Position numbers and translations under genes: made by a program. Positions 7,305 through 30,000 of a stretch of DNA of 32,415 nucleotides are shown piece after piece; within the stretch, counting starts at the first letter, position 1; each line of letters starts with the position of its first letter. The stretch lies in the NCBI GenBank assembly GCA_003151855.1, contig PLYV01000223.1, positions 1 through 32,415 of the forward strand. The letters are read 5' to 3'. The DNA is from Limisphaerales bacterium (GTDB lineage Bacteria > Verrucomicrobiota > Verrucomicrobiia > Limisphaerales > UBA11358). The notes below the pieces were generated by a model. That model did no database searches. It was not told the origin of the DNA and worked only from the letters and a program-made list of their open reading frames with translations.

Positions 7305-7335
7305 GGCGGGGGGGCAGTGGATTTTTGAACCATGA
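7207..7335 (+). pseudogene. 3' remnant of a LuxR/NarL-type response regulator
   Basis: In a frame different from the esterase, 7207-7335 encodes 42 residues that begin like the end of a LuxR-type helix-turn-helix: IREKLQVRSRSQAVAKF matches the recognition-helix end and the following helix of NarL/FixJ regulators. The frame ends at a TGA (7333-7335) overlapping the ATG of the next gene. No upstream part of the domain is present, so it is a fragment left at a recombination junction near 7206. The match is by eye to the family pattern. It is short, but the pattern is characteristic. Confidence 0.6.
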
Positions 7336-10973: not shown

Positions 10974-13900
10974 CTAATACTTCAGCCGGTAGAACACCGT
11001 GGGCTTGGCCGGATCAATCGTGATGGTGGCACTCCCATCGCCAACACCCGACACCGGGCTCCAGCCGGTCGGACTCAAACCAGTGGAGAGGTTGTTGGTC
11101 TGCGCCTCCAGCGTCCACCCTTGGCCGGCGGGCCAGGTCAGATGCAGCGAGTTTCCGCTGATGCTGTTGGTGATGACTCCCGGACCACTCGGGCCGGCGG
11201 TCACCACGCTCAACACACCATTGTTGAAGCTGTAGCCCAATCCGCTGCCGGCACTGCCAACCACGGTCAAGGTGCCCGTGCCGCCGCTCGGGAAGAGGCG
11301 GAAGCTGTTGCCCACCGCCAAGGCCGGGCCGAGGTTGTTGACCGTCAGCATGCCGCCGTAGGTCAACGTGCCGCTCACATTGACGAAGTCGTTGGACTGC
11401 GCCGGCGAGAGGCTCCGGTTGAGTTCGACCAGCGTGTTGCCGGACAACGAGAGATTGCCGTTGATGGTCAGCGTGCCGATGGACGCGCCGGGTGACAGCG
11501 TGCCAGCAGAATTGACCGTGACGGAATTGTTGACCGTGCCGGTGCCGCCAAAGGTGCCGCCATTCACCGTCACCGGGCTGGCAATGGTGCCGTTCACCAG
11601 TAATGTGCCGTTGCTGACCGTTGTCGCGCCGGTGTAGCTATTGGCCGTGGACAACAATGTGAGGGATCCCGACCCGACTTTGGTCAGGGCCGTGCCTCCG
11701 GTAGCCCAATCAATGATTTTTCCGGCAAAGGTTGTGCTGGTGCCCAACGCGCCCACTTCAAACGTGGTCGGCGACGCGGATGAGGAACCGCCTTTAAGAA
11801 TGGTATTCGCATTCGTGCCGGAAATACTGCCCATCTTGACCCGGGTGCAGGCAGGGTCTGCCACTTGCGTCACGCTGTAGCCAACGTCTCCCAAGTTCCA
11901 CGCCGTGCCGGAGGCATCAAAGTTGGTCACCTGTGCGCCCGTGCCGCCATCAGAGACACCGCTGTAGGCGATGCCGTTGAACACGAAACTATTGTTGTTG
12001 GCGGCGGAGCCGAGAATGATGGTTCCGTTAAACGTGGCGAGCGGATTGCCATTCCAAATCAATCCGGGCTGGTTGACCCCGCTGTTGTTCTGGAACTTGA
12101 GCGTTCCCGTGCCCGTCCAATTCACGTTGTCACCGGCCACCCACAGGTTGCCGTAGTTGTTCACGGAATCGTCAATCACGTTGGTGGTTCCGGCCGGAAT
12201 GACCAGGCTGTTGCCGAGGTAACAGGCGTTCGCGCTGTTCCAGGAACCGCCGCCGCCGGCTTGCACCACGATGGTGCCGTTGCTGAGGGTGAGCGCGCCG
12301 CCGCTGAAGGAATTGTCGGCTCCGTTGGGCAGGATTACCGAGCCGCCGAGAATCTTGGTGTCACCGGAATAGGTGTTGTTCTTGCTGATGGTGAATGCTC
12401 CCGAACCCACTTTCACCAGCGAGATCGGCCCCAAACTGTTCACGATCATGCCAGCATAGGTCGAACTGGCGTCACCATTCCCGATAGTCACGGTGGAGGC
12501 ATCCAGGCCCAGATTGTCAATAGTGCCCCAATCCGACAGACCGTTCATGGAGACATTGGTGCCATGCACGTCGAGGGTTGTGCCGCTGCTCAGAATCACG
12601 TTGCCCTTGCCCGCGCCACTCGGTATGGCGCCGCTGCTAGCCGCTATTAACATACCAGCGGAGAGGGTCGTATTCCCGGTGTAGGTGTTCGCACCCGCCA
12701 AGGTCACGCTGCCGGAGGAGACCGCCAGAGCGGTATTACCGGACACAGGCCCCGCCAGCGCGATGCCCGCGCCAGAATCGTTGACAATGAATCCAGGATT
12801 CAAAACCACGGGCGTGGAGATGGTTTGCAGATTGGCTGAACTGTTGTTCAGCGGGCCGCTCAAGGTCAGCGATTTGCCGGACGTGCTGCCAATCGTGAAA
12901 ACGTCCGCCGAACCATCAAAGGTCAGGCTCGCCACGTCGTAGTTTGCTTCCAGGTTCGGCGTCAAGCGCGTGCTGCCGGTGAAGATCACAGTGTCACCGG
13001 AATAGCCCGGCGCCAGACCGCCAGACCAGTTGGCATCGCTGCCCCAGTTGTCATTGGCCGCCAAACCGCTCCACGTTTCGGTGGTCGAATTGACGGTCAA
13101 GGTGGCCGCGCCGGTGCCTACCGCCGAACTGGTGTCCGTCGCTGCCACGCCGATGGAATCCGATCCCACCACGGCACCCGGGCCGACGACCACCGGGCCG
13201 TATGAATATTCATAGGTGCTGCCGGAGCTGGTCACCAGCGTCATGGCTTGCGTCGCCGAGCCTCCAATCGCACTTAAGTCCACCGTCACACTGCTGATGT
13301 TGTTCAGCGTTTTTTGCACGACCGCATACGCGGTCACCGACTGACCACGCGTAACCACCGTGGAGCCGTCAGCAACATTGGTGACCGTGACGCTGGTGAC
13401 GATCGGCGGAGGATTGACCGAATAATGCAGAACCACGTTTTTTCCACTGGCTTTGATCCACCAATTTGCGGAGTCGCCGGGCGGCGTGCTGTCAAACACC
13501 AGCACCGGAATGCTGCTCATCGTCAGCGTGCCGGTGACGCTGAAAAGAACATAGTCGCCCGTCTCATCCAAATTACCGCCGCCGGTCATGGCATTGATGT
13601 GAATCGTATCGGCCGTGCCGAGCTTGAGGTTGCCATTGACGACCACTTGGTCATTACCGGTCAGGTGATTATCGCTCAAGTCAAAGGCCGCCGAACCTCC
13701 GGCATTCATGGTCAAGTTGTTCTTGAAGGTCAAGGTGCCAACCACCCAGGCTCCCGCCGGCGAAATCGTCGAACCGCTGTTGGCCGTCGTCACGGCGCCC
13801 GTCACCGTGCCGATGCCGGACAAAGTCTGAGCGCTGCCCAGCGTGTAGGAACTCGCCGCCGAAACGTCGAACACGCCGCCGCTGCCCACGATAATGTTGG

Positions 13901-16900
13901 CGGTGCCGCTGATGTTGCCGCCGCCGCTCAGGGCCAAGGTGCCACCATTGATGAGTGTGTCACCGCTGTAGAGGCTGTTGGCCGTGAAGGTGAGCTTGCC
14001 GGAGCCGGTTGAATTCGTGAGCACCAGACCACCGGAGTTGCTGTTGGGGATGGCCGACGCAAAGGTCACGTTGGTGCCGTTCAAGTCAATCAAGATCGGA
14101 TTGCCGCTGTTGACGAAGTGCGAGGCGTAATCAGCCTGATTGGCCGCCGAGTATTGGAGCATGCCGCCACTGAAGGTAATGGGAGTGTTCGCGCTGAACA
14201 GATTGGCACCGCCAACGTTCAGAATACCATCAGAGATGTTAACGCCGCCGGTCATCGTGCTGGTTCCGCCAGTCAGCGTCAGCTTGCCCGTGCCGACCTT
14301 GTTGAGTGCCATCGTGCCACCGTTATCAAGGAGCCTGCCAGCGAATGTGGAATCCGCGTTAAGCCCGCCCACCTGAACAGTATGGAGTCCCGACCCGTTA
14401 CAGGCGAGGGTTCCCGCGCCACTCAGCGAGCCGAACTCAATCACTCCGCCAACGCCGAAATCAAGCGTCACAAAGCGATCCGGCGCGCCGCCAATGGACC
14501 AGGGAATCCCGGCGTTGCCTGAGGTCGTGGATTTGAACCGGACGACGGTCTGGTTGTTGCCGGTCAGCGGAATCGTGATGCTGCCGCCAGACATGGTGTT
14601 GGCGCTTAAACCGACGTTGAGGGAGTTGATTCCCGGAGACGCGCCGCCGAGGATCAGGTTGCCCGTTCCAGTCAGGCTGCCCCCGACCCAGAAATCGGAT
14701 ACCGCCCCCAGCTTGATGGTGCCGCCGCCAGCGCCCACCACGACATCATTCCACATCCCAACTCCCGCCGAGTTTTGCACGGTGCCGCCATTCAGCGTAA
14801 GAGTTCCCGTGCCGAGCGCTGCGTTGTTGCCAACGCCCACAATGCCGTTACTGATCGTGACGCCGCCGGTGAAGGTGTTCGCACCGGACAATATCAGTGT
14901 GCTGGAGCCGGCCTGGATCAATGAACCGGCACCGGAGATGATGCCGGACATGGTTTGCGCCGCCGTGCTGTTAAACCACAGCGCGCTCTCGACATCAACA
15001 TTGGTAGCATAGTTACCACTGCCCAACTGACCCGCGCCGGCAACTTGCAGCGTGCCGGCGGAAACGGTGACGGCACCGGTGAACGTGTTGGTGCCTGTGA
15101 GCGTGAGCGTATTGTTTCCAACCACGGTGAATCCAGCGCCTGTGTCGGAGACTGGACGAGTGATCGCCACGTTACCCACCGCCAAGCTAATGGTTGGCGC
15201 GCCGCTCAACGTCACCGGCACATCCAACGTCTGCACGTTGGCCGAGTTGTTGGTCAAGCCACCCGTCAGCGTCAGCGTGCTGCTGGAATTGGTGATGTCA
15301 AAGCTGCCAGCGCCACTGTTGAAGGTTAGCGAAGCCATGCTGGTGCTGGCATCCAAGTTGTTGGTCAGCCGGGTCGAACCGTCAAACGTCGCACTGTCGC
15401 CAGCGCCGGGGCCATGCCCCAAATTCCAGTTGCCGCCCGTGCTCCACTTATTGTCACTGCCGCCGCCGCTCCAGGTCGGATTGGAGTTGGCCACCGTGAT
15501 GCCCGTCACGGACCAAGCGGCACTGCCGCCATTATTCTGGTTGACCACACCGCTCACGGTGTAGCTCCCCGTCGCCAAAGTGCCAGACACATTGAACGTG
15601 CCGGTCCAGTTGCCGGCTCCATTGCCGCCCGGACCGGTCAGGGTGACCGGGTCGCCGGCTCCGCCCAAGCCATCCACGCCAACCGTCACACTGGTAATGC
15701 TCTGTCCCGATGCCGGCGTCACGTTCACGGTGATGGTGGTGCTCTGATAATGCACCAACGAACTGGGCGACGCGCTGGCGGAATTGACCGTGGGCGCACT
15801 GATGACCGTCAAGGCCGCACCCGCACCGGTGGTAGTCCCATAACTATCGGTCGCCCGAAGCCGATAGTAGGTGGTTCCTAAAGTCGAGGTGTTCGGCGTA
15901 TAGGTGGCGGACGTGGACGAGCCGGAAGCGTTCGCCCAGGTGTTGCTGTCAGGACTGCTCTGCCATTGGTAAGTTAAACCCGTGCCGGCACTGCTCACCG
16001 TCGCACTCGCGGTCACCGCCGTGTTCAGATAAACCGGACTGACCGGCGAAAAGGTTGTTTTTCCAACAGTGGGAGGAGCGCCCGGGACCTGATAATGAAG
16101 CACCACGGTGGTGGCAGACTTGACGATGCTGTAATAGCTCGAATTCGCCGGTGTGCTGGTGCCCCAAGCCAACGTGGGGGTGCCGCTTCCAGAAATGGAA
16201 CCGGCCGTAAACAGCGTGTAGTCCGCCGTATCAAGAGTGCTGGTGGTGATGGGATTGATCTTGATGGTGTCAGCACTGCCAATGGTGAGGGTGCCGGTCA
16301 CGGCAACCTTGTCATTTGCGCCGGCGGCGGAATTGCTGAGATCAAAGATGTTGGTTACTCCAGAACAGGTGACGTTGCCAGTGCAGGTCAATGTCCGGCC
16401 AGTCGTGGAATTGGTGCCCGGAGACAGAACCGTCGTCGAACCCAAAGACACATTGCCGCCGATGGTGCCCACGCCACCCACCGCAGTGCCGGCACCGCTG
16501 GCTGTAATCGCGTCGGAACCGGCGCCGGTCGCGCTATCCACCAGCAAGGTGCCGCCGCTGACCGTTATTGTGCCACCAGTGAGCGTGCTGGTGCCGGCAA
16601 GCTCCAGTGTCCCCGCGCCGGCTTTCGTAAAGCTCGAACTGCCGTTGGCAACCATTCCCCCCATGACACTCAAATCAATCCCGCCGGGCACCGTGCCTTG
16701 AGCAGTATTGATCGTCAACCCGTCCGCGCGCAGCACAATCGGCGCGTAGATGGTGGAAACAATATTGGTGGCCAGACTGTTGAGGCCGCTGCTCGAACCA
16801 TTGAAATTGATACCGGCCGTGCCCGTGTTGGCAACACTGTTTGTTATCGTGCCGCCCGTCAAATTGAACGTGGTGATCCAACCGTTGTTCCCGTTTTGCG

Positions 16901-18059
16901 CATTGTCCAGCGTGCCGCCGACGATGTTGACGGGCGTAGCCACTGCTCCGGAATTGTAACCCAACGCATCGGCAGCCGTCATCTTCACCGTCGCGCCGGG
17001 ATAGATGGTGAGCGTGTTCCTGACCTCCCCGTTGCCACCGCCAGCCCCCAAGGCCAGAGTTCCCTGATATACCAACGTGCCACCGGTGTAGCTATTTCCT
17101 CCGGTTAAAGTCAAAGTCCCCGGGCCGGCCTTGTAGAGAAGTTTAGCCGTCGAACCGTTATTTTGAATACTTGAATTAATCGTGCCGGTGTCTGGCACAT
17201 AAATGTAAAGCCCGTCATTGTTGGCTTTTAACGGTCCCGAACCATTGATGGTGCCGCCATTTTGAAGAATAATACCCGTGTCTATATAAGTATTGCCACC
17301 GTTATCCGTCAGGGTGGCACCACTCACCAAGAGCGAGGCCCAAGAGGCATTGGGGGACACGGTGGTATTACCAGTAACCTTCACGTTGTGCGCATCCGTA
17401 TTTGCTGCCGTTGTATAGGTAGCAGCCACAATCGTTCCGCCGCTGTTTCCGGCGCTCGCCCAGTCATAGGTATTATTGCCATTGTCGATCACAAACCCCG
17501 GACCCGTCAGCCCGGTATTGGCCACAGCACCAGAACGCCAGTTCCACCCATCGGCAGCGGTCGTGGTCTTGGTGCCGGTGCCTGATATAATCACCATCGC
17601 TCCTGCCGGGCCGTATTGGGTGGGCAAACTGCCAAGGGCGAGCGTGGCTCCTGCCCCCACATTCCATTTCTGGAGACCTGCCGCAGGTGTAATCGCCGCA
17701 TTGATCGTCTCGGTGCCGCTGGTCAGCGCACTGGCATCAATGCCGCCGGTGCCGAGCGTGAGGCCACTGCCGCCAATGGTGAACAAACTCGCGCCACTGT
17801 TGAAAGTCAGTTTATTGACCGTCAGGCCGGAAATGTTGTTGTTCAAGGTCAGGCCGGACGATCCCGCCGCGCCGAACACCAGCGAGTCGCCGTTGGCTGG
17901 TGGCGTGCTGCCGCCGGCCGTGGTCCAGTTGCCGGCCGTGGTCCAGTTCGCGTCGGTATTTCCGCCCCAGGTATCCGTGCCGGCAGCAAGAGCGGAGCCG
18001 GTTGACAGCGCCACTGCCAGAATAGCGCCGAACAGTTGTATGGTTGTTTTTTGTTTCAT
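10974..18059 (-). CDS. Giant secreted protein with autotransporter-associated beta-strand repeats (2361 aa)
   Basis: Residues 1-25 are a signal peptide (MKQKTTIQLFGAILAVALST, ending SALA). Three large homologous modules follow, each opening with a DTWGGNTDANWTTAGNW-like segment: near residues 27, 863 (SGGGSDNKWSTGGNWNLG) and 1658 (WSGLAANDNWGSDANWSGG). Each module contains many PATR units (PF12951) of the form LTLTGGNSYTGGTLVYQGTL, which predict a long right-handed beta-helix. Ig-like segments lie between modules (about 658-756, about 757-860 and again before 1658). The protein ends in a module finishing TVFYRLKY. There is no autotransporter beta-barrel, so classical type V secretion is unlikely despite the repeat family's name. 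It is probably a surface fibre or adhesin; ligand unknown. The sequence is low in charge and rich in Gly, Thr, Ser and Asn. Confidence 0.9.
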   Translation of the reverse strand: MKQKTTIQLFGAILAVALSTGSALAAGTDTWGGNTDANWTTAGNWTTAGGSTPPANGDSLVFGAAGSSGLTLNNNISGLTVNKLTFNSGASLFTIGGSGLTLGTGGIDASALTSGTETINAAITPAAGLQKWNVGAGATLALGSLPTQYGPAGAMVIISGTGTKTTTAADGWNWRSGAVANTGLTGPGFVIDNGNNTYDWASAGNSGGTIVAATYTTAANTDAHNVKVTGNTTVSPNASWASLLVSGATLTDNGGNTYIDTGIILQNGGTINGSGPLKANNDGLYIYVPDTGTINSSIQNNGSTAKLLYKAGPGTLTLTGGNSYTGGTLVYQGTLALGAGGGNGEVRNTLTIYPGATVKMTAADALGYNSGAVATPVNIVGGTLDNAQNGNNGWITTFNLTGGTITNSVANTGTAGINFNGSSSGLNSLATNIVSTIYAPIVLRADGLTINTAQGTVPGGIDLSVMGGMVANGSSSFTKAGAGTLELAGTSTLTGGTITVSGGTLLVDSATGAGSDAITASGAGTAVGGVGTIGGNVSLGSTTVLSPGTNSTTGRTLTCTGNVTCSGVTNIFDLSNSAAGANDKVAVTGTLTIGSADTIKINPITTSTLDTADYTLFTAGSISGSGTPTLAWGTSTPANSSYYSIVKSATTVVLHYQVPGAPPTVGKTTFSPVSPVYLNTAVTASATVSSAGTGLTYQWQSSPDSNTWANASGSSTSATYTPNTSTLGTTYYRLRATDSYGTTTGAGAALTVISAPTVNSASASPSSLVHYQSTTITVNVTPASGQSITSVTVGVDGLGGAGDPVTLTGPGGNGAGNWTGTFNVSGTLATGSYTVSGVVNQNNGGSAAWSVTGITVANSNPTWSGGGSDNKWSTGGNWNLGHGPGAGDSATFDGSTRLTNNLDASTSMASLTFNSGAGSFDITNSSSTLTLTGGLTNNSANVQTLDVPVTLSGAPTISLAVGNVAITRPVSDTGAGFTVVGNNTLTLTGTNTFTGAVTVSAGTLQVAGAGQLGSGNYATNVDVESALWFNSTAAQTMSGIISGAGSLIQAGSSTLILSGANTFTGGVTISNGIVGVGNNAALGTGTLTLNGGTVQNSAGVGMWNDVVVGAGGGTIKLGAVSDFWVGGSLTGTGNLILGGASPGINSLNVGLSANTMSGGSITIPLTGNNQTVVRFKSTTSGNAGIPWSIGGAPDRFVTLDFGVGGVIEFGSLSGAGTLACNGSGLHTVQVGGLNADSTFAGRLLDNGGTMALNKVGTGKLTLTGGTSTMTGGVNISDGILNVGGANLFSANTPITFSGGMLQYSAANQADYASHFVNSGNPILIDLNGTNVTFASAIPNSNSGGLVLTNSTGSGKLTFTANSLYSGDTLINGGTLALSGGGNISGTANIIVGSGGVFDVSAASSYTLGSAQTLSGIGTVTGAVTTANSGSTISPAGAWVVGTLTFKNNLTMNAGGSAAFDLSDNHLTGNDQVVVNGNLKLGTADTIHINAMTGGGNLDETGDYVLFSVTGTLTMSSIPVLVFDSTPPGDSANWWIKASGKNVVLHYSVNPPPIVTSVTVTNVADGSTVVTRGQSVTAYAVVQKTLNNISSVTVDLSAIGGSATQAMTLVTSSGSTYEYSYGPVVVGPGAVVGSDSIGVAATDTSSAVGTGAATLTVNSTTETWSGLAANDNWGSDANWSGGLAPGYSGDTVIFTGSTRLTPNLEANYDVASLTFDGSADVFTIGSTSGKSLTLSGPLNNSSANLQTISTPVVLNPGFIVNDSGAGIALAGPVSGNTALAVSSGSVTLAGANTYTGNTTLSAGMLIAASSGAIPSGAGKGNVILSSGTTLDVHGTNVSMNGLSDWGTIDNLGLDASTVTIGNGDASSTYAGMIVNSLGPISLVKVGSGAFTISKNNTYSGDTKILGGSVILPNGADNSFSGGALTLSNGTIVVQAGGGGSWNSANACYLGNSLVIPAGTTNVIDDSVNNYGNLWVAGDNVNWTGTGTLKFQNNSGVNQPGLIWNGNPLATFNGTIILGSAANNNSFVFNGIAYSGVSDGGTGAQVTNFDASGTAWNLGDVGYSVTQVADPACTRVKMGSISGTNANTILKGGSSSASPTTFEVGALGTSTTFAGKIIDWATGGTALTKVGSGSLTLLSTANSYTGATTVSNGTLLVNGTIASPVTVNGGTFGGTGTVNNSVTVNSAGTLSPGASIGTLTINGNLSLSGNTLVELNRSLSPAQSNDFVNVSGTLTYGGMLTVNNLGPALAVGNSFRLFPSGGTGTLTVVGSAGSGLGYSFNNGVLSVVTAGPSGPGVITNSISGNSLHLTWPAGQGWTLEAQTNNLSTGLSPTGWSPVSGVGDGSATITIDPAKPTVFYRLKY

Positions 18060-18339: not shown

Positions 18340-18747
18340 ATGCCTCATCCATCACCTTTTGCCCGCCTGCCCTGGCCGCATCTGAATACCGCCCGCCGAT
18401 TTGGCGCGGGCCTGGTGGCCGGATTGGCACTGGTCGCCGGTGACAAGATTTTCGCTGAAACAACGGACAACGGCGCAATCACCCCCGACAACCCAGCCGT
18501 CGCCACCACCAGCCAGCCGTCCAATCCCGAACGTCAGGCCGCGCTGGCGACGTGGCAGGCTGCGCGATTCGGGCTGTTTCTGCATTGGGGTGATTATTCC
18601 GTCTATGGCGGCAATTATCACGGCAAGGATTTGTGGAGCGCGGAGTGGATTCAGGAAAACGCGCGCATCAGGCTTGGTGTGACGGTGTGGACTTGGACGT
18701 TGAACGATTCGGCCAGACGGTCAAGCGCGGCGGCAATCTGTTTCTGA
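18340..18747 (+). pseudogene. Truncated GH29 alpha-L-fucosidase (N-terminal part only)
   Basis: From ATG 18340 the frame gives a signal-like segment (RRFGAGLVAGLALVAGDKIFAE) and then the start of a GH29 catalytic domain: ATWQAARFGLFLHWGDYSVY and GKDLWSAEWIQENARI are characteristic of this family. Homology stops at about 18670, residue 110, where the DNA continues as an integrase gene on the other strand. The remaining 25 or so codons are read-through to a TGA at 18747. GH29 enzymes are usually 450-600 residues, and the nucleophile region is absent, so the product cannot be active. It likely removed fucose from glycans before it was cut, fitting the esterases and lyase nearby. Confidence 0.85.
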
Positions 18748-19220
18748 CGCCACTTGGATTTGCCGTCGGTGATGATTTGCCGCTGCAACTGTTGGTTTGC
18801 ATCCGCGACGGTGATTTTCGGCAACAGGACGGCGTTGCGCTTCACCCATTCTCGGCAGGCTTCGATGATGGACGCCTTGCCGTCGAGGATTTGCAGGGCG
18901 TCGGCATATTCACGGCAGGCGGTGTCAATCGGAACCCCGACGGGCGACACGGCTTCCACGGCCCGGACGTAGGCCATCCGGTCAGCGTCCCGCAATTCGA
19001 GCGACGATTGATCTCCGTTGGCAACTTTATTGCAGGCATCTTGAGCAACGGTTTTCGCTTCGTCGAGATCGGAACGCCATACTCGTTTGCGTCTGCCAAA
19101 AAGGGTGAATTCTACGACGTAAGCATCATAATTTTTCCCGGCCTTGGATTGCGAAGCCTTTCGGATTTTTGCTGAAACGCCCTTCTCTGTAACCGTCAGA
19201 GGGAACTTTTCGGTTTTCAT
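18651..19220 (-). pseudogene. Truncated site-specific (tyrosine) integrase next to tRNA-Pro
   Basis: From ATG 19220 (MKTEKFPLTVTEKGVSAKIR) the frame encodes about 185 residues resembling the N-terminal arm-binding and SAM-like core-binding region of Verrucomicrobiota phage-type integrases (FTLFGRRKRVWRSDLDEAKTVAQDACNKVANG; later WRQKQIAAALDRLAESFNVQVHTVTP). The catalytic domain with the R-H-R-Y residues is missing; similarity ends at about 18670, where the antisense of the fucosidase begins. The gene starts 81 bp from the 3' end of tRNA-Pro and points away from it, the usual place for an integrase of an element inserted at a tRNA 3' end. I infer it is the remains of such an element after a deletion that also removed most of the fucosidase gene. 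An upstream start at 19244 is possible. Confidence 0.75.
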
Positions 19221-19300
19221 GGTCAATAAAGACCTGACAGTCACCTTTCTGGAAGGAATCTGTCAGGAACGATTGACCCTATTGAAAAACCCTTTAAAAA

Positions 19301-19378
19301 TGGTCGGGGCGGGGAGATTTGAACTCCCGACCTCTTGCACCCCAAGCAAGCGCGCTAGCCGGGCTACGCTACGCCCCG
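19301..19378 (-). tRNA. tRNA-Pro (anticodon GGG)
   Basis: The minus strand folds as a full cloverleaf. The acceptor stem CGGGGCG (19378-19372) pairs with CGCCCCG (19311-19305). The anticodon stem CTTGC/GCAAG encloses the loop TTGGGGT, giving anticodon GGG. The T arm is GGGAG-TTCAAAT-CTCCC. Discriminator A is at 19304 and an encoded CCA lies at 19303-19301. It is flanked on both sides by decayed integrase genes, so it appears to be an integration site. Confidence 0.95.
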
Positions 19379-19419
19379 AACCATAAATTCATTGGCCTTT
19401 TTCGACATTTCAATGCTCA

Positions 19420-19434
19420 CAGATTGACAATCTG
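19420..19434. repeat. Small inverted repeat upstream of the second integrase remnant
   Basis: CAGATTGACAATCTG is a perfect 7-bp inverted repeat around one base, between the tRNA-Pro 5' end and the start of the plus-strand integrase remnant. It could be an operator or a recombinase arm site; nothing else supports a role. Confidence 0.3.
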
Positions 19435-19445
19435 ATACTGAAACC

Positions 19446-19883
19446 GTGAACGCACAGAAACAGCCGGATAAAGCTTCCGATTGGCAAAAGCCGACCTTTG
19501 TAAATCTGCTGCGCTACAAGCCTTCACAGGTTTATTTTGCCTGATTGAAAATTAAGGGCAAGCTCATTCGCCGGAGTTTGAAGACAAATCAAATCACCGT
19601 CGCCAAACTTCGCCTGGTCGATCTGGAGAAAATCGAGCGCCAGAAGGCGCAAAGCGTCAATGCGATTTTTAACGGCAAAATGACCTTTGGAGAAGCATTG
19701 TCGGTATTCCAGAAGCGAATGCAGGAAAACTCCGCCGTCAAACCCAAGACGAAGGAGTATTACAAATTTCGCGTCATCGCCCTGCTAAAGTCGTGGCCGG
19801 GACTGGTGGGCAAAGACGTGAGCCGTATTTCAAACACCGAATGTCTGGAATGGGGCGTGAAGAACGCCCGGACGAACAGCTAG
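19446..19883 (+). pseudogene. Decayed second integrase (N-terminal part, two in-frame stops)
   Basis: A frame starting near GTG 19446 reads through WQKPTFVNLLRYKPSQVYFA, meets TGA at 19542-19544, then continues in the same frame with KIKGKLIRRSLKTNQITVAKLRLVDLEKIE and a SAM-like core-binding segment (MTFGEALSVFQKRMQENSAVKPKTKEYYKFR). This is the pattern of tyrosine integrases common in this phylum, in which an Arg follows YFA; TGA is one transition from CGA. The frame ends at TAG 19881-19883, after which a few residues (HNHTVSLLSA) may still belong before the neighbouring gene is reached. No catalytic domain is left. It is a different integrase from the one on the other side of the tRNA and points the opposite way. 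Confidence 0.75.
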
Positions 19884-19907
19884 TCATCCCACAACCACAC
19901 CGTCAGC

Positions 19908-20591
19908 CTACTCTCTGCCGCTGTTTCGCAGTCTGATTTGACGGAAACGCCAGAGCAGAAACGCGCCGGACACGACTAGCAACAAGGGTTCCGGTTCCGG
20001 AACCGTGGTGATTTGCAGGCCCCAGTTCACCAACACGGTTGGTTCACCGTCGCTCGACAGATCGGCCACGAACAGTGTCCAGGTGCCGTTGGCCGGGCGG
20101 TCGTTGAATTGGTTCAGCAGGGCCGTTGGATTCACGGTTTCGTTGACGCTGCCCGGATCCACAGCACGTCCGTCAGGCTGCCAGGTGCCGAGCAGACGGC
20201 CGCTGGCGTCGAAGGTGGGGCTGAACTGTTCATACCAATGCACGTTGTTCGCGGCCCGGTCATCAAGCGTGATGTTTAGGCCGGGCGCGCCGTAGCCAAA
20301 CGGGTTGGTTGAAGCCATGCCGACACAATTCAGCAGCACGGAAAACTGGCCGTCAAAGGTCAGATAGGCGTAAAGGTCGGCGTTGCGCGGAACGTCCAGG
20401 CTGATGTTCACGTTCAGGTCGGAGATCGCGCCCTGCGTGCCGGCGACGGTTTGCTGGTTGATCATGCCGCTGGAGTTGCCGTCGGGCACGGCACCGTCCA
20501 CGGCGAAACTGAAGACGTAAGCATTGGTTTGACCCAATGCCGTCGCGACCATGGCGGCGGTGAAAAGCGCCGTGACTACTGCTTTGATCAT
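19908..20591 (-). CDS. PEP-CTERM protein with P-domain-like fold
   Basis: Starting at ATG 20591 (MIKAVVTALFTAAMVATALG) rather than the TTG at 20603, the protein has about 227 residues. A signal peptide is followed by a beta-sandwich of the proprotein-convertase P-domain type: ISDLNVNISLDVPRNADLYA, then LLGTWQPDGR, FNDRPANGTWTLFVADLSSD and VNWGLQI. The end is a PEP-CTERM sorting tag: VPEPEP, a hydrophobic stretch LLLVVSGAFLLW, and a basic tail RFRQIRLR. Such tags are recognised by exosortase in species that make an exopolysaccharide, so the protein should be processed at the envelope. The longer protein at 20866-23973 has the same P-domain-like fold but a different C-terminus. The gene's 3' end abuts the integrase remnant. 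The repeat element at 20631-20798 starts only 40 bp upstream of its ATG. Confidence 0.85.
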   Translation of the reverse strand: MIKAVVTALFTAAMVATALGQTNAYVFSFAVDGAVPDGNSSGMINQQTVAGTQGAISDLNVNISLDVPRNADLYAYLTFDGQFSVLLNCVGMASTNPFGYGAPGLNITLDDRAANNVHWYEQFSPTFDASGRLLGTWQPDGRAVDPGSVNETVNPTALLNQFNDRPANGTWTLFVADLSSDGEPTVLVNWGLQITTVPEPEPLLLVVSGAFLLWRFRQIRLRNSGRE

Positions 20592-20630
20592 TTTCAATTT
20601 CAAGTTTTTAGCTGGAACAATGTAGTTCGA

Positions 20631-20798
20631 TTAACCACGAAACACACGAAGCACACGAAAAAGGAGGTGAAAGAAAGTTTGCTCGACGGCGGGCGAGAGG
20701 CGCCTAATGGCGGGCGACATCCGGGGAATGGACGTTGGCACATCCGGCCTGTTTTGCCTCTGTGTTTCATTCGTGGGTTTCGTGTGTTTCGTGGTTCA
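20631..20798. repeat. Inverted-repeat element with CCACGAAACACACGAA arms
   Basis: The left arm AACCACGAAACACACGAA (20633-20650) is the exact reverse complement of the right arm at 20779-20796, an 18-bp perfect match, extended by further GAAGCACACGAAA-type repeats on the left and TTCATTCGTGGG on the right. The roughly 128-bp interior has no gene. Sequences of this kind are recalled as a dispersed intergenic repeat in several environmental bacterial phyla, often mistranslated as THKTHKTHKK-like peptides. It may be a non-autonomous mobile or REP-like element; no transposase is nearby. Confidence 0.75.
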
Positions 20799-20865: not shown

Positions 20866-23800
20866 TTACGGATAGACGGTGCGGTAGAACCGCATCGAAG
20901 AGCCGGACGTATCCGTGTATTGGAACGCGCCGACGCTGTTCGCCGTCACACTCTCAATATCCTGCCAGACAAACGGACCGGTGACGTCCGAGTATTGCAG
21001 GCGATAGGTGCGGCCGGGGATGCCGTTGCCGTCAATGCGGAAGGAACCGTTGTCCAGATTGACGATGACCAGGTTCTGGCTCGGCGCGTTGTCCACCTTG
21101 ATGGCGACTGTCACGGTGCCCGTGGCGCTGCCGCCGTGGCCGTCCGTGACGGTGTAGGTGAACGAATCCGCATTGGTGAAGCCGGGAACCGGCGTGAAGA
21201 ACACCCAGGCACCGCTGACGGTGACCGTGTTGTTGCTGGCGCTGGTCGCGCTGACGGTGATGGTAAGTGTGTCGCTGTCCGCATCGCTGGCCTTGCCCAG
21301 CAGTTCCGCGAGCCGGACTTTCACGCCTTGCGCCGGATAGCGCTCAATGGTGTCGCCGCCGGCGACCGGAGGCGTGTTGATGACCTGGCTTTGCGCCAGC
21401 GTGTTGGTGACGCCGGCGAAGTTGGCGTTGCCAGCATACTCAGCCACGATGGTGTGCGAGCCGTGCGCGAGGTTGTTGGTGGTGAAGGCAGCCTGGCCAC
21501 CGGACAAACCGCCGGTTCCCAGGACGCTGCCATCCGCCTTGAAGGTCACCGTTCCGTTCGGCGTGCCGACACCGGGGGCGACCGCGCTGACGGTCATTGT
21601 GAACGTCACGTCCGCGCCGGGCAGCGCCGGGTTGGCCGAGGAAACCAGATCGCCCGAGGTCAGCGAGTTGGTGATGGTGAGCGTGCCGTCAACATAGTTG
21701 AACGAGTAGTTCGCACTCGTTGCGCCGCTGGCGGTGATGGGATAGGTGCCGGCACTGCTGCTGGCCGTGGCCTCGGTTGTGATGGTCGCCAGACCGGTCA
21801 GGTCATTGGTGCCTTGATTGAGCGCGAACCCGCTATAAGTCGCCGTGAAGACCGGCAATGCCGCGCCATACGCCTTGCTCTTGTCCTGGGCGGTGACGGT
21901 GATGGTAACCTGGCCGACCGACAGGGTGCCGGTGTTGGTGGTGACGGTGTAGTTGGCCAGCTTGCTGCCCGGATCGCTCAAGACTGGCGTGATGGCGTAG
22001 CCGCTCACCGGACTGTTGATGTCAGCCGTCGTGACAAACGTGGCGGTGATGTTGTCGCCATTTTGCTGGCCGGTCACGCTGCCGGTGAAGGCCGGATTCG
22101 CCGCGCCGTAGAGGCGGTTGGTATTGTCCGCCGTGACGATCAAGCCCGCAGACGTCACTGTCAGCGTGCCGTTGGTGAAGTCAAACGCGTAATTGGTGGA
22201 GCTGAGGCTGCCCACGCTCGCCGTAATAGTGTAGTTGCCCACAACGCTGTTGGTGTTGGCGCTCGTGGTCAACGACGGACTGCCGCCCAGCACGCTTTGG
22301 GATTCTCCATCCACAAAGCCGCTGTAGCTGGCCGTGAAGGTTGGATTGGCCGCGCCATAAACGCGGTTGGTGTTGTTGGCCGCGACGATGATGAGGGCTT
22401 TGCCGACGGTCAACGTGCCGTTGGTGAAGGCAAAGTCATAGTTGGTGGCACTGAGGCTGCCCAGGCTTACCTCAATGGGGTAGTTGCCCACAACGCTGTT
22501 GGTGTCGGCGCTCGTGGTCAATGCCGGGCTGCCCGAAAGCACGCCGGCAGTTTCGCCGTTGACGAAGCCGCTGTAGCTGGCTGTCAGCGTCAGATTCGTC
22601 GCGCCGTAAATGCGGCTCTGGTCATCCGCCGCCACCGTCACCGTGGCTTTGCCGACAGTCAACGTGCCGTTGGTGAAGGTGAAGCTGTAGTTGGCCGCGA
22701 TCAACGAGCCTGCTCCCGCTGTGATTGTGTAATTGCCCACGACGCTGTTGGTGCCGGCGCTCGTGCCCAACGCCGGGCTGCCCGAAAGCACGCCGGCAGT
22801 TTCGCCGTTGACGAAGCCGCTGTAGCTGGCCGTGAGCGTCGGGTTGGCGGCACCGTAAATGCGGTTCTTGTTGCCAGCCGCGACGGTGATGGAAGCCTGG
22901 CCGACCGACAGTATGCCGGTATTGGTGGTGACGGTGTAGTTGCCCAGCTTGCTGCCCGGATCGCTCAACACGGGCGTGATGGCGTAGCCGCCCACGGGAC
23001 TGCTGGTGTCAGCCGTCGTGACAAACGTGGCGGTGATGTTGTCGCCATTTTGCTGGCCGGTCACGCTGCCGGTGAAGGCCGGATTAGCCGCGCCGTAGAG
23101 GCGGTTGGTGCTGTTCGCCGTGACGATCAATGAAGCGTTCAGGACGTTGATGGCGACATGATTGGTGACTGGCAGAAAGCTGCTTGCATCCGTGGGAGTG
23201 AAAATCACCGTGAGCGTCTGGCTCGATCCCGCGTTCAACACCGTGCCAGCGGCGGGCGAGTAAGCAAAGGTGCCCGGCACGTTCGTTGAGTTGTAAGTCG
23301 CCGTCGCGTTCAACTGCGTTCCGCCGAGCGCCGTGCCATAGGTGATGTCCGCCGGGTTCGCCCATGTCAGCGTCGGATAGGCTCCGCCGGAAATTTGCAG
23401 TGACCATTCGGTGAGCATGTTCGTGCCGCCGGATTCAACATCGGAAACATAGAGTGTCCATTCCCCAGCGGCGTTGAGGCCGTTAAAACTGCTCAACGCG
23501 GTGGCGCGCGCGGCGGCGTCGGTGACATTCGCGGGATCATTCGTGCGGCCATCCGGCTGCCAAGTCCCCATGAGCGGCGAACCGTCGGCGAGGTTGGTGA
23601 CGCTCTGATAAAGATGCACGTCGCCATTCGCCGCGCCGTCCTGGAAGGTCACGTTGAAACCGCTGTCGGCATAGCCGGCGGCGTTCCCGGCGGTTTTCCC
23701 CGGACGGTTGAGCAGCACGCTGTAGCCGCTGGAATGGCGAAGATAGACATAGAGGTCGCCGTTGAATTCACCGGTGAGTTTGAAGCCCACCTTCAGCGAC

Positions 23801-23973
23801 GTGATGTTGCCGATGGCGGAGCTGATGTTTTGCACGTCGCTCAGGCCGGCGGCGTTGCCGTCGGGCACCAGGCGGTTGGTGGTGAACGTGTAGGTTTCGA
23901 TGGTTTGCGCCTGGAGGAGCGGCGTTGCCGCCCACAGGCATACCAGCATGATGGCTGCTATTAGTTTTTTCAT
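20866..23973 (-). CDS. Secreted protein with P-domain-like fold, six MBG repeats, Ig-like and cadherin-like domains
   Basis: The frame is open from 24072, but a signal peptide begins at ATG 23973 (MKKLIAAIMLVCLWAATPLL), giving about 1035 residues. Order: P-domain-like sandwich (about 25-200; LTGEFNGDLYVYLRHSSGYS, GTWQPDGR, NAAGEWTLYVSDVESGGTN), an Ig-like unit (about 202-282), six MBG-type units (about 283-770; each with NRIYGAANPTLTASYSGF or similar and a YTITAG... NYSFTFTNGTLTV end), a bacterial Ig-like domain (about 771-868), a cadherin-like domain (about 869-961) and a C-terminal module (IPGRTYRLQYSDVTG to MRFYRTVYP). It lies just after the 2390-residue gene on the same strand with no terminator between, so they probably form an operon. 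It is likely a surface stalk or adhesin. Repeat units are close at DNA level, so recombination may change their number. Confidence 0.88.
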   Translation of the reverse strand: MKKLIAAIMLVCLWAATPLLQAQTIETYTFTTNRLVPDGNAAGLSDVQNISSAIGNITSLKVGFKLTGEFNGDLYVYLRHSSGYSVLLNRPGKTAGNAAGYADSGFNVTFQDGAANGDVHLYQSVTNLADGSPLMGTWQPDGRTNDPANVTDAAARATALSSFNGLNAAGEWTLYVSDVESGGTNMLTEWSLQISGGAYPTLTWANPADITYGTALGGTQLNATATYNSTNVPGTFAYSPAAGTVLNAGSSQTLTVIFTPTDASSFLPVTNHVAINVLNASLIVTANSTNRLYGAANPAFTGSVTGQQNGDNITATFVTTADTSSPVGGYAITPVLSDPGSKLGNYTVTTNTGILSVGQASITVAAGNKNRIYGAANPTLTASYSGFVNGETAGVLSGSPALGTSAGTNSVVGNYTITAGAGSLIAANYSFTFTNGTLTVGKATVTVAADDQSRIYGATNLTLTASYSGFVNGETAGVLSGSPALTTSADTNSVVGNYPIEVSLGSLSATNYDFAFTNGTLTVGKALIIVAANNTNRVYGAANPTFTASYSGFVDGESQSVLGGSPSLTTSANTNSVVGNYTITASVGSLSSTNYAFDFTNGTLTVTSAGLIVTADNTNRLYGAANPAFTGSVTGQQNGDNITATFVTTADINSPVSGYAITPVLSDPGSKLANYTVTTNTGTLSVGQVTITVTAQDKSKAYGAALPVFTATYSGFALNQGTNDLTGLATITTEATASSSAGTYPITASGATSANYSFNYVDGTLTITNSLTSGDLVSSANPALPGADVTFTMTVSAVAPGVGTPNGTVTFKADGSVLGTGGLSGGQAAFTTNNLAHGSHTIVAEYAGNANFAGVTNTLAQSQVINTPPVAGGDTIERYPAQGVKVRLAELLGKASDADSDTLTITVSATSASNNTVTVSGAWVFFTPVPGFTNADSFTYTVTDGHGGSATGTVTVAIKVDNAPSQNLVIVNLDNGSFRIDGNGIPGRTYRLQYSDVTGPFVWQDIESVTANSVGAFQYTDTSGSSMRFYRTVYP

Positions 23974-24075
23974 ATGTGTTGACTGTTGAGGTTTGTTGCG
24001 CAGGTGGACGAAATCGGTTCGCGTCTGCGCAAGCATCGGACCGAAATTATTTGAGGTGATTTTAGTTTTCATAAG

Positions 24076-27000
24076 TTATGGATAGGTTGAGCGATAGAAT
24101 CGTGCCGGCAGGTTGGTGCCGGGTGAATCGGTGTATTGAAACTGTCCGGTGGCATCCGCCGCCGCCGTGCCCAGGGATTGCCAGTTGGGTGTGGCCAGGT
24201 TGGTTGTGTATTGGATGGTATAAGTGCGCCCAGGTATGCCAAAGAAACTCGTAAGCAAGCTGCCGTTGCCGAGGTTTTGGGACAGCTCGGTGTTTTGCGC
24301 CGCATTGGTGTCGGAAACAATCGCCACCGTCACCGAGCCGGTGGCTTGCAGGCTGCCGTCAGTTATAACATAGGTAAAGCTGTCCGCATTCGTGTAGCCG
24401 GCGGGACGCGTGTAAAAAACCCAGCCGTAGTTGGTCGTGACGGTGCCGCCCTGCGCGCTCGCGGCATTGACAGAAATAAGCGAGATGGCATCGCCATCCG
24501 CATCCGTGTCGTTGGCGAGCAGCGATGTCACGCGCATCTTCGCGCCGGTGGTTGGGTAGCGTTGCAGCGTGTCGCTGCCGGCGATGGGCGCGCTGTTGAT
24601 TGCCTGATTGGAGCCAAGCGTGTTGGTGCTGCCGGCGAAATTCCCGTCGCCGGCATATTGCGCCGTGATGACGTGCGTTCCATGCGAAAGTGAATTGGTG
24701 GTCAGGCTGGCGATACCGCCGCTCAACGTCGCCGGTGCGCCGAGCGCGGTGCCATCGGCCAAAAATTGAACCGCGCCCGTCGGTGTGCCGCTGGCCGGCC
24801 CCACCGCCGTCAAGGTGGCTGTAAAAGTCACATTAGAACCGGTTGGTGCCGGATTGGATGAGGAAGAAACGACGTTGGTGGAACTGGCTTTTGTAATGGT
24901 GAGCGAGCCGTTGTTGAAAACAGTGAAGCTGTAGTTAGTCGCAGTCAAACTGCCCACCAACGGTGTAATCACATAGCTACCGACCGGACTGCTATTAGTG
25001 GCGGACGTGCTGAAACCCGGCGTGCCGAGCACAACACTGGCGGTTTCGCCATTGACGAAGCCGCTGTAACTGGCCGTTAACGACGGGTTAGACACGCCGT
25101 AAATGCGGTTGGTGTTGTTCGCCGTCACCGTCAGGGCAGCCGCCGTCACCGTCAGCGTGCCGGCATTGGTGGTGACCGTGTAGTTGCCCAGCTTGTTGCC
25201 CGGATCGCTCAAAACCGGCGTGATGGTGTAACTGCCCACGGGACTGTTGGTGCCGGCTGTCGTGGTGAAGGTGGCGGTGATGCTGTCGCCGTTTTGCTGG
25301 CCGGTCACGCTTCCGGTGAACGTCGGATTGGCCGCGCCATAAACGCGGTTGGTGCTGTTGGCGGTCACGGTGAGCGTGGCGGCGGTGATGTTCGCGGTCA
25401 GGCCCGTCGGCGGCGTCAGCGTGTAGTTGCTCGCCGCGCTGCCCGTCAATGTCAGCCCGCTCACCGTCACCGTCTTGCCGGTGCCAACCGCCGCGCTCGA
25501 AAACGTCGCGCCGTATCCATTCGTCGAAAGCACCACGTTGCCGGAGTCGCCTGCGACCACGCCGCTCAAGACCACGCTGTTCGAGTTGATCGTCGCCGTT
25601 GTCGTGCCGTTGTAGGTTTTGCTGTTGGCCGTGATGCCGGAAGCCACGGTCACGACCGCCTGGTTGACGTTGAAGGCGAGCGCGGCAGACGTGCTGGCCG
25701 TGTTGGTGACGTCGCCGGCATACACCGCCGTGATGGAATGTGAACCATAGGCAAGTGTGCTGATGCTGAAGGCGGCGACCCCGGCTGAAATCGTTCCCGT
25801 TCCCAGCGTGGTTGCGCCGTCCTTGAAAGTAACACTCTCGCCATTAGTGGGAGCGGGACTGATCGTGGCGGAGAAAGTGACGGAGTTGCCGTAGGTGGAG
25901 GGATTGCTGCCGGAAGTCAAAGCTAGGGTATTTGTAGTAACATTCTGAACGGTCAGGTTAAGGTTGCCGCTCGAAACAGAAATGGAGGCGGTCGTTCCGG
26001 CAGCGATGCCGGAGCCGGAAACAACAACCGGCGTGGCGTTGGGCGTGCCGGAAATGGAGCCGCTGGAGCCGTTGCCGACTTGAACGAGGCGGTAAACGCC
26101 CGCGCCGAGCGGAGTGGCGGCGGCGTTGGTGATGGTGATGCCGTTGTTGTTCAGCGTGAGCGAGGCGTTGGTGACCAGCAACGCGGGATGGGTGGTATCG
26201 CCGCTGAACGAGACGGGTGTGAAATTGAGGATGATGGAATTAGTGTTCAGGTTGACCGTGCCGCCGCCGTTGATGGTGGCGGCGGTGGAGCCGGGAGCGG
26301 TGCCGGTGCCACGGGCTTGCAAAACAGTGTTACTGCTGAGGTTGAAGGTTGATACAGCCGACACATCAAAGGTGCCGCTGGCGGCGAGAAATATATTCGC
26401 CGAATTACTGATGGATCCGGTGTTGCTCAACGCCAGGGTGCCGGCGTTGACTACCGTGCCGCCGGTGTAGGTATTCGCACCGGACAACGTCAGGGTGCCG
26501 GAGTTGAGCTTGGTCAAGCCGCCGTCAACTGCGTTGTCGCCGGCAATGCCGCTATGAACCAGCGGCTGGCTGATCGTGATGTTGAATCCGGCACTGTCCA
26601 CCACTGCGCCGCCATTGCGCACGTTCGCGGTCTCTCCACTGCTGGGAAGAAAGTCCGTGCGGCTGGCGCTGGCCGCCAGCGTGCCGCCGTTAAAATTGAT
26701 TACCTCCATGCCGCCACCGAATCGAAACAGCAGCGGCGTAAGACGACCGCCATTCAGATTGAGCGTTGAGTGTCCGTTGCCCTCACTCATGGAAAGGCCA
26801 AGAGTGCCGGTATCGTTCACCAGGACGCTGCCGCTGTTGATGGTCAGCGCGGCGTCGCCGTTGCGGGCAACCTGGAAACCATAGTTGTTGGTAACGATGA
26901 ATGAGCCGCCGGCGATGGTCATGTTGTTTGTGGTTCCCGCGGTGTCGCCCAATGGGAACCAGGCACCACCGTTGCCGGAACCCACGGCGAAAACAGCGTT

Positions 27001-30000
27001 GCTGCCGATGGTCACATTCGCGCCCTGGTCAAACTTGCTGTTGCCGTTGTTTTGGAACACCACAAAACTGCCGTTGGTGATCAGCAAATTGCCGCCGAGA
27101 CTGCTGTTCCCCGCGAAAAAGTAGTTGAAGGTGTTTGTGCCGGAGAGCACCAACAAACCTTGATCCCGCACAATCAATCCAGGGAAAGCCGGGCCAGCCG
27201 ACGGATTCATTTGAAGCTGGGCCGTCCGGTTGGTCAGCGTGTCCACGATCACGCTTCCGGTTCCACTGGCACCGTCGGCTCCGCCACTCAAGGTTGTCGC
27301 TTGCGGGCTGGTCAGGTTGGCGGCGACTTGCAAAACAACGCTGGTGGCGTTGGAGGCCAGGGTCAACAGGTTGGCAGCGGCCCCAAGCGCCGCCGCGTTG
27401 GAAACGACCAAGGTGCCGGCGTTGACCACTGTGCCGCCGGTGTAGGCGTTGTTGCCTGACAGCGTCCAGGTGCCGGTGCCGTTTTTCACGATGGTGGTCG
27501 CGCCGCCGCTGCCCGAAATATTTCCAGCGATTTCGCCCGCGCCGCTGGTTGAACCTTGAAGAATGAGGTAATGGGCGCGAACGCCGCCCTGACTCAGACT
27601 GCCGGTAAATTTCAACAAGCCGGACCCTGACTGGTCAATGACCTGGTTGGGTTCGTAGTCGGAACCGTTGGCAGCGGTGTAACTGATGACGCGATCCGAT
27701 GTTTCCCCGGTGCCGGTGTAGAACAATGTTCCGTTAGCCCAGGAGCCGCCCAGGTTGATGTCCGACACATTTCCCAATGCCTTGCTCACGGATGAAACGT
27801 TCAAAACGCCGCCACCGACGACTTTCGTTTGTCCAGAGAACGTATTCGTGCCGGAAAGCGTCACGGTGCTGCCGCTGACCTGCAACAAGCCGCTCCCCGA
27901 AATCGGGCCATCCAATGTCTGGGCCACAGACGAACTAAAAGTCATGGTGCCGCCATTGCTGATCGCGCCCGAATACGAGCCGGCGCCCAGCGAACCGGAA
28001 CCGCTGATGGACAGTGTGCCAGCGTTGACTACCGTGCCGCCGGTGTAGGTGTTCGTGCCGGAAAGCGCAAGCGCGCCCGGTCCAGCCTTGGTTAAATTAT
28101 ATCCAGAACCACCATCACTGATCGCGCCCGAAATATTCAGGTCAATTCCACTGGGCACCGTTCCAGCCGCAGTGGTAATAACCACCCCGTTTGTCCGGAG
28201 CACAACGGGACCGCTGATGGTGGAAACGATATTTGTGGCTAGACTGTTGATGGCGCTTGATGAACCGTTGAAATTATAGCCGCCACCACCGGTGGAACTC
28301 ATCGTGCCGCCGGTCAAATTGAATGTGGTGATCCAGCCGTTATTGGTGCTCGTGCTGTTATCCAAGGTTCCACCCACGATGTTGACGGGCGAGGCCACTG
28401 CTCCATAGCCAAGCGCATCTTGGGCACCCAAACTCACAAGGGCGCCTGAATTGATAGTGAGCGTTCCGAGAACACACGCAGACGAGCCACCCACAGCCAG
28501 CGCCAGCGTTCCACCACTGACAACCGTGCCACCGCTATAAGTGTTGTGACCGGAGAGCGTCAGATTGCCAGCGCCGGCCTTGGTCAGTGAGTAACCGCCG
28601 CCAATCGCCCCGCCGACGGTCAGCGTGTTGGTGCTGACGGTGACTTGCCGGTTTCCACCCAGCGTCACCGCGCCGGGGCCGAGGTTCAAACTTTGTGAGC
28701 CGACAAATGTGAAATCTGAGTTCCAGTTTTCGGGGTTGACGTTGCCATTCACCAGATTCGCCAGCGAACAATCCAGATTGCCGCCGGCCAGGGTAAGGGT
28801 GCTGGTTCCATATAATGCGTTTGTGCCGCCAAATACCAGCGTGCCGGAGTTCACTGTGACAGCGCCAGAAGAACCACCGGCATACACAGAGCCATTATTC
28901 GTTCCATCAAGTGTCACTGCCCCAGTGCCATTCAAATTCAAGTAAAGGTTTCCGCCCGACCCGGCATTGGTGAATTGAATGCTGTTTCCAAACAGCCAGT
29001 TTCCAGAGCCATACAAGTCCAACTCATGATTGCCACCACCACCGCTCTGCCACGAGGAATTAAGGAAAGACACGGTTGAAGCTGAATTATTCGTCCAGTA
29101 GTGGTAATAGTCATTTCCTATGTAAAGATTACCACCGTTGACACCCGAAAAGGTCAACGCACCAGCGCCAGAAGATACTGACAACGCCGGCCCAATTCGA
29201 AAATCCGAGTTCAAATAAATGGTTACCGGGTTCACCTGTCCAGATGTCAGGTTTAGGTTGACGCCGGGAGGACCAAAAGTGGTGTTGTTTGTTATTAACT
29301 GCGGATTATTTGCCGTTGTGCCAATCCATTGCAGCGTGTCGCCAGCGGCAGGAGTCACCTGTGCCCCCGTGCTGTTGGTCCAGTTGGCGGAAGTGTCCAC
29401 ATAATGGTCGCCAGCCGCATTTGTCCAAGTGTCAATGCTCACGTTGACTGTCAACGCCGCCGTGTTTGATCCCGTCAGCGGCGTCTGGTCCATGGCCGTC
29501 ACCGTCAGATTGTAATTATCGGCGGCGGTGGAAGGTGCCATGGTGAAAGTATTGGTGTAGAGACTCGAACTGTTCGACTGCACCAGCGTTCCGGTGCCAC
29601 CGCCAATGGCCGACAGGTTGACCGTCACATTCGTCACCGGCGCGCTGCCGGCCGTCACCGTCGCGGCAATGGTGACGTTTTGGTTGCGCAGGGCCGGCGA
29701 CGGGCTGGCCGTGGCGGTGAGCGTCGGAGCGGCCGGAGTGCAATGCAACTGCACGTTCGTGCTGGTGACAACCACCGAGAAATAAGAATTGTTGAAGGGC
29801 GCAACATCGAAGACGGCGGAAGCCGATCCGGTCACACTGGCCGCCCTGGCCAGAATGTAGTTGTGCGCGAAGTCCAGATAATCGGAGGTGCCCGGCGCCC
29901 GCAGATGAAACACCGTGCTGTTGAGCGCCAACGTGCCGCCCACGACGATTTGGTCGTTGGTCCCGTTGTAGGCATCTCCCAAATTCATATAGACCGTCGC

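Follow-up and report, generated by a model that had tools for sequence, protein, structure and literature searches.

A proline tRNA gene of a Verrucomicrobiota draft genome lies between two decayed integrases, one from a family that appears to take tRNA 5′ halves

Mobile elements that integrate at tRNA genes usually do so at the 3′ end. In the Islander collection, 3760 of 3919 islands are of the 3′-end kind and 159 have a 5′ tDNA fragment (Hudson, Lau and Williams, PMC4383910). Integration into 5′ halves is described as seldom met in bacteria in a review (PMC8371274). The pTN3-like integrases of Thermococcales use the 5′ half of a tRNA gene as attB, with 41 shared bp that include the anticodon (PMC8371274; Cossu 2017, PMC5495485). 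According to the same sources, pTN3 integration parts the tRNA from its native promoter and splits the int gene. Integration into 5′ halves is already known (pTN3, Islander) but rare in bacteria, and what is unexpected at the locus described here is that the family of its 5′-side relic appears to take 5′ halves as a rule.

The window, i.e. the whole stretch of DNA analysed, comprises bases 1–32,415 of a 35,488-nt contig (C201) of an uncultured Verrucomicrobiota bacterium, the draft genome of which has 331 contigs and is 69.7% complete. The original prediction, made from the sequence alone, placed a tRNA-Pro(GGG) gene between two unrelated, decayed integrases. One integrase remnant is confirmed on each side of the gene, termed int1 on the 3′ side and int2 on the 5′ side (Table 1), and the ends of homology to kin (18672 and approximately 19913) are close to the limits first proposed, 18670 and 19912. 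The int1 remnant was said to start 81 bp from the tRNA 3′ end; the adjacency holds, and the distance from the likely ATG at 19220 is 80 nt by the present count. The int2 remnant begins with a GTG 67 nt from the tRNA 5′ end and points away from the tRNA as claimed, and the two in-frame stops ascribed to it are located at 19542–19544 and 19881–19883. Its homology at the DNA level to an intact relative in genome G037 begins at the repeat unit at 19428. Profiles built exclusively from relatives match the window beyond chance, with E values of 6e-59 for int1 and of 5e-30 plus 3e-5 for int2.

Table 1. Features around the tRNA-Pro(GGG) gene (window coordinates)
Feature	Position	Strand	Basis
alpha-L-fucosidase gene, 5′ fragment	18340–18669	plus	cut at end of int1 homology
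int1 remnant, N-terminal part of tyrosine integrase, catalytic half lost	18672–19220	minus	homology to intact kin
inverted repeat upstream of int1	19233–19268		sequence; also beside the G037 int1 remnant
tRNA-Pro(GGG), shared target	19301–19378	minus	tRNA call and Rfam tRNA, 62.3 bits
tRNA nt 52–78, part displaced in 3′-type islands of relatives	19301–19327	minus	predicted for the window from 3′ fragments in relatives
tRNA nt 1–41, part that int2-type elements would carry and displace	19338–19378	minus	predicted for the window from 5′ fragments in relatives (nt 1–41; nt 1 to 37–42 in nine complete elements)
divergent region, tRNA 5′ end to int2 start	19379–19445		layout and length class as in 77 int2 loci
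13-bp arm-type repeat, surviving copy	19428–19440	plus	intact relative in G037 has two
int2 remnant, N-terminal part of tyrosine integrase, catalytic half lost	19446–19907	plus	homology to kin; two in-frame stops

Because their catalytic halves are lost, searches of Pfam, NCBIfam and PHROGs with the remnants themselves gave no match to an integrase family. Both appear to be tyrosine integrases, an assignment that rests on their intact kin, which match PF00589 (Phage_integrase) at 4.5e-19 (L007), 4.1e-18 (L053) and 9.7e-9 (L059). The description of the two as unrelated applies to the surviving parts; in the catalytic domain, intact kin of the two are 25% identical over 131 residues. The original prediction missed that the two sides of the tRNA were invaded by different integrase classes, the one on the 5′ side being unusual.

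The tRNA-Pro(GGG) gene is very probably an integration site that was entered from both ends, by an int1 element via the 3′ part and by an int2 element that replaced the 5′ half, both of which have since decayed. The int1 element would have used the 3′ part of the tRNA gene for recombination, with its integrase gene coming to lie just past the tRNA 3′ end. The int2 element would have recombined in the anticodon stem-loop and replaced tRNA nt 1 to approximately 41 together with everything upstream, and the int2 gene would be left divergent from the tRNA 5′ end. Decay of both elements would leave N-terminal integrase remnants and a scar in the fucosidase gene. The truncation of this gene does look like the scar of a deletion or rearrangement. 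A search for the missing half in the rest of the draft gave 11 fucosidase-domain matches, 10 near-complete and one short and partial, none of which was assigned to it.

The window has an int2 remnant and not an island: the distal tRNA fragment is absent from the contig, as expected of a decayed element. A search of the contig gave no convincing att copy of a tRNA fragment, and att repeats inside the window are not above the level of other matches. The int2 element of the window, the distal end of which is lost, presumably entered by 5′-half replacement. The divergent region between tRNA and int2 is probably the int-side end (P′ arm) of that element.

Within the family group, 34 of 49 genomes (a set that includes the own genome) have kin of int1. 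Of 29 loci checked, 23 have a tRNA or tmRNA, and the integrase faces its 3′ end in all 23; judged by this placement in its kin, int1 fits the classical 3′-end type. Displaced tRNA 3′ fragments on the same contig and strand are found in relatives at approximately 60 kb (G047:C45) and 29.5 kb (G032:C185). The inverted repeat upstream of int1 is a possible operator or Int site. In addition, an int1-family integrase on contig C272 of the own genome (L003) starts approximately 60 nt beyond the tmRNA 3′ end, and four int1 loci of relatives also adjoin tmRNA.

Kin of int2 are found in at least 47 of the 49 genomes (own genome included), with up to 15 per genome among the matches listed. From among these, 94 matches that cover the integrase N-terminus were checked, with other short N-terminal matches left out. 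A complete tRNA was called in 78 of these loci; its 5′ end faces the start of the int2 kin in 77, and one is in reverse. The 16 matches with no called tRNA include tRNAs cut by a contig end or by an NN join, lone 5′ halves, and 3′ halves with a degenerate 5′ half. Targets include tRNAs for Leu, Ser, Arg, Lys, Met, Phe, Tyr, His, Pro, Val, Ala and Thr. In a species-wide scan, the best 80 of 406 relatives give 64 of 67 loci that are 5′-facing and three in reverse, with 13 having no tRNA. This set overlaps in part with the 94 matches (L177 is G037:C55), and approximately 63 of its titles name Verrucomicrobiota, nine read 'bacterium' only and eight name other groups. The four parallel exceptions across both sets are all at tRNA-Arg(acg or tcg). 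Two integrase families that are found in the same genomes on opposite sides of tRNAs provide an internal control.

These counts bear on the view that tRNA-Pro(GGG) is an ordinary 3′-end hotspot only, and that int2 stems from an unrelated element that ends beside the tRNA 5′ end by chance. The Islander proportions given above lend it some weight, as does int1, which shows this tRNA in use as a 3′-end site. It is nonetheless highly unlikely, and for the family as a whole already contradicted, as relatives of int2 keep the 5′ geometry in both sets of loci and at many tRNA species, and complete int2 elements hold 5′-half copies at their far end.

The latter copies are what entry on the 5′ side leads one to look for: where an element replaces the tRNA 5′ half, the host 5′ half is expected at the far end, on the same strand. 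Such a distal copy (nt 1 to 37–42) was found in nine of 72 int2 elements searched in relatives and the own genome, at a distance of 3.4 to 9.6 kb in eight of the nine; one copy is split by a small shift. In the other 63 elements no distal 5′-half fragment was found, and many of the contigs or stretches examined end early. The same search gave two opposite-strand fragment matches, of other make-up. In the set of named relatives, three of 62 have the distal copy, one being the same element as in the set of 72. The configuration described for Islander, i.e. an intact tRNA with a same-strand 5′ fragment upstream and an integrase between them, is present in the nine elements and at tRNA-Pro(GGG) of G037, where a copy of nt 1–41 is 43.7 kb upstream of the gene and an intact int2 flanks the gene (G037:C55). 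The locus at tRNA-Ser(cga) of G025:C95 (L138) is a tandem 5′-side array: displaced 5′ halves are found at both 1.7 and 18.7 kb, and behind one such half, beyond the element next to the tRNA, is an older int2 remnant.

The end of the displaced repeat falls within the anticodon loop or slightly beyond it, as it does for pTN3, and it seems fair to place strand exchange in that loop. Because the displaced far-end copy in the nine complete elements is the tRNA 5′ half, int2-type elements are predicted to recombine so that this half and all upstream DNA are replaced. The integrase gene itself is not disrupted by integration, and 71 int2-family frames of at least 320 aa are open beside a tRNA. The complete elements of 3.4–9.6 kb are small integrative elements with a mixed cargo: an HTH_17 protein, which we take to be excisionase-like, a G2P-type replication protein, a D5/DUF5906 protein, a type IIG restriction enzyme, and an AbiE-like pair (weak matches).

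One element with both ends present, 5.5 kb in length, is found at tRNA-Val(gac) on contig C87 of the own genome. The flank it displaced matches the sequence directly upstream of an intact tRNA-Val in G042:C38, with 89% identity over 153 nt, made up of 72 nt of flank, the tRNA and approximately 6 nt beyond. This shows a leader of the native type, although the locus is perhaps that of a paralogous tRNA-Val, because a 78% match to this stretch is also present in the own genome, on contig C218. In an empty-site comparison for the element at tRNA-Leu(tag) of G010:C58, the match in G035:C12 is confined to the tRNA with a portion of its 3′ flank and does not extend to the displaced flank.

In some int2 sub-clades the tRNA 3′ half is intact but the 5′ half to which it is joined is degenerate (L150, L154, L155, L250 and L252, on the side that resembles tRNA-Arg(cct), and L006, L129 and L133). 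These appear to rebuild no working tRNA. For L155 there is an intact tRNA-Arg(cct) on the other strand within the stretch examined, perhaps a spare copy as in tRNA-dependent lysogeny.

Short direct repeats are a further signature of the int2 family. A repeat with at least 9 of 11 bases matching is present between tRNA and int2 in 62 of 77 loci, compared with two of 77 shuffled sequences (one shuffle each). In 56 of the 62, the pair is spaced at exactly 13 bp, and most pairs are approximately 50 nt from the tRNA. The repeat unit differs among int2 subfamilies. It recurs in the same orientation 124–215 bp from the distal fragment in all eight elements compared, with one mismatch allowed and no shuffle control; five have two or more distal units and three have one, and spacings are 11 to 13 bp. 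Repeats at both ends have the layout of arm-type sites that flank a core and, with the tandem insertion, support replacement of the tRNA 5′ half. In several subfamilies the second unit, read by eye, resembles a −10 hexamer, with a TTGAC-like −35 located 17 bp before it. If this unit is a −10, the integrase could repress itself.

The tRNA-Pro genes of relatives were searched for insertions, as the hotspot proposal had called for. The comparison covers 38 tRNA-Pro(GGG) genes, drawn from 52 loci of which 51 have a called tRNA-Pro; further GGG genes of the 49 genomes, such as one in G023 with int1, are outside this set, and three of the 38 (L092, L097, L098) have less than 200 nt on one side. Neither family is present within 400 nt in 27 genes, int1 only in five, int2 only in three and both in three (the window, G039:C19 and G011:C727); G037:C55 is tallied as int2 only, yet it carries an int1 remnant. 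Thus int1 is on the 3′ side in eight genes and int2 on the 5′ side in six, and 11 of the 38 are occupied by one or both. Displaced pieces of tRNA-Pro are present, among them duplicated 3′ ends, which the hotspot proposal also suggested looking for: nt 1–41 at four places (G037:C55, G042, G015, and elsewhere in G037 at 90%), nt 52–55 to 78 at 11 places and nt 29/30–78 at two.

In a closest-kin comparison of 158 tree rows and the int1 set, int2 best matches the intact int2 at tRNA-Pro(GGG) of G037 (78%), followed by those at tRNA-Pro(CGG) of G037 (70%) and tRNA-Pro(GGG) of G003 (55%). The two best matches of int1 (approximately 50%) are both at tRNA-Pro(GGG). Because the closest kin of both relics use this same tRNA, the hotspot reading stands; together with the variable occupancy in relatives, the sequences support tRNA-Pro(GGG) as an insertion hotspot.

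The remnants might instead have been inherited from one ancient, doubly occupied locus, with no recurrent hotspot in the lineage. The int2–tRNA–int1 sandwich is also seen in G039, G011 and G037, which fits with such inheritance, but int1-only, int2-only and doubly occupied states all occur, most GGG genes have neither family, and no flanking genes are common to the window and the tRNA-Pro loci of relatives save for one weak autotransporter-repeat match. Common descent of the sandwich is therefore improbable. A chimeric assembly that wrongly joined the two flanks of the tRNA is scarcely credible. The draft is fragmented and incomplete, has NN joins inside other tRNA genes, and the fucosidase gene is abruptly cut; however, the sequence is continuous through the tRNA, and the same arrangement recurs in other assemblies.

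With regard to the evolution of int2-type integration at two ends, a FastTree phylogeny of the 158 rows, 17 of which are the int1 outgroup, indicates that, in the int2-like rows that have a tRNA (111 of them 5′-facing, nine 3′-facing), the side changed at least five times and the tRNA target at least 45 times; the program gave long-branch warnings. With few changes of side and many of target, the two lend themselves to separate study. In a phylum-wide sample of 194 genomes, 18 (own genome included) have relatives of int2 at E 1e-30 or better; the 21 such loci checked outside the own genome comprise nine that are 5′-facing within 300 nt, seven 3′-facing and five with no comparably placed tRNA. 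The 5′ habit is strong in the lineage of the window and mixed outside it.

A swap of the tRNA 5′ half swaps the promoter as well, and because of this, 5′-half integration should be costly. Native tRNA flanks show a sigma70-like signal, with a mean of 8.04 hexamer matches vs 7.11 in shuffled sequences (57 flanks, one shuffle per sequence). On the int2 side, a sigma70-like tRNA promoter was not detected, the mean being 7.60 vs 7.66 (77 flanks, one shuffle each). This counts against the 5′-half reading, as do the missing distal att of the window, the 63 elements with no distal fragment found, the limits of the two empty-site comparisons, the sub-clades with a degenerate tRNA 5′ half and the mixed sides in more distant relatives. 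Either the element supplies another type of promoter or the tRNA relies on other transcription. The present 5′ leader of the tRNA would seem to be element-derived and to drive the tRNA.

A broader and tentative proposal, which we consider possible but on balance doubtful, is that of a Verrucomicrobiota integrase family specialised in capturing tRNA 5′ halves. Insertion would exchange the native promoter for a short divergent region with arm sites and so couple tRNA expression to integrase control, and dependence of the host on the leader would preserve the DNA beside the tRNA after the element had died. The tRNA-Pro(GGG) gene would then be a mosaic of a 5′ half contributed by one element, a 3′ end contributed by the other and approximately 10 host nt between. 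If true, leader dependence would explain the N-terminal integrase stubs beside tRNA 5′ ends. This raises the testable question of what drives the tRNA after promoter replacement, and whether integrase stubs persist for that reason.

Several other features of the window and draft should be pointed out. Two autotransporter-repeat (PATR) proteins of 2361 and 2390 aa flank the tRNA region (10974–18059 and 24076–31248). A P-domain protein at 19908–20603 appears as a paralogue, at 37%, of a portion of the adjacent protein at 20866–24072. A 27-nt inverted repeat (20633–20659 and 20770–20796) has arms that are 93% complementary and 110 nt apart; its core was found in no examined locus except those covering the window. 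A SASA carbohydrate-esterase-like gene (7332–9258) appears to be split over the overlapping frames 7332–8864 and 8200–9258, which would reflect a frameshift or else an error of assembly. Two tRNA genes of the draft are interrupted by NN joins, at approximately 2050 of L002 and 1256 of L007, and because of such joins some tRNAs of this genome are overlooked or misrepresented by tRNA callers.

A search of the open literature gave no report of a 5′-half integrase family in Verrucomicrobiota or of a bacterial family devoted to 5′-half integration. Here a bacterial family appears to carry out 5′-half integration as the rule in one genome group and at many tRNA species, and its complete elements, tandem arrays and decayed copies offer ready-made comparisons. 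Elements of the int2 type would escape any island search in which integrases are sought solely beyond the 3′ ends of tRNAs.

The Islander islands with 5′ fragments are alike in that an intact tRNA has a displaced 5′ fragment on its 5′ side, on the same strand, with the integrase between. They differ in being a minority across genomes, whereas int2 is one family in which facing the 5′ end is the rule in its genome group. A case at tRNA-Thr of Caldiarchaeum (PMC3293823) also has a 5′-half fragment upstream of an intact tRNA and a recombinase gene in the insert, but is a single archaeal case. Actinobacteriophages with tRNA-dependent lysogeny (PMC10865867) have pairs of putative arm-type sites that flank the core, and some sub-clades of int2 may resemble them in not rebuilding the tRNA; the phages, however, use the 3′ half and carry a spare tRNA, whereas most int2 loci leave a complete tRNA.

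As in pTN3, the int2 fragments of nt 1 to 37–42 would put attB in the tRNA 5′ half. The pTN3 system is archaeal and its int gene is split on integration, whereas int2-family genes stay open; kin of int2 match PF00589 and give no match to PF16795, the domain named in the review (PMC8371274). Thus, at the level of sequence, the int2 family appears to resemble pTN3 integration in its target and not to be a member of the pTN3 family. Classical 3′-end tRNA islands accommodate int1 and its kin, and int2 is their mirror image.
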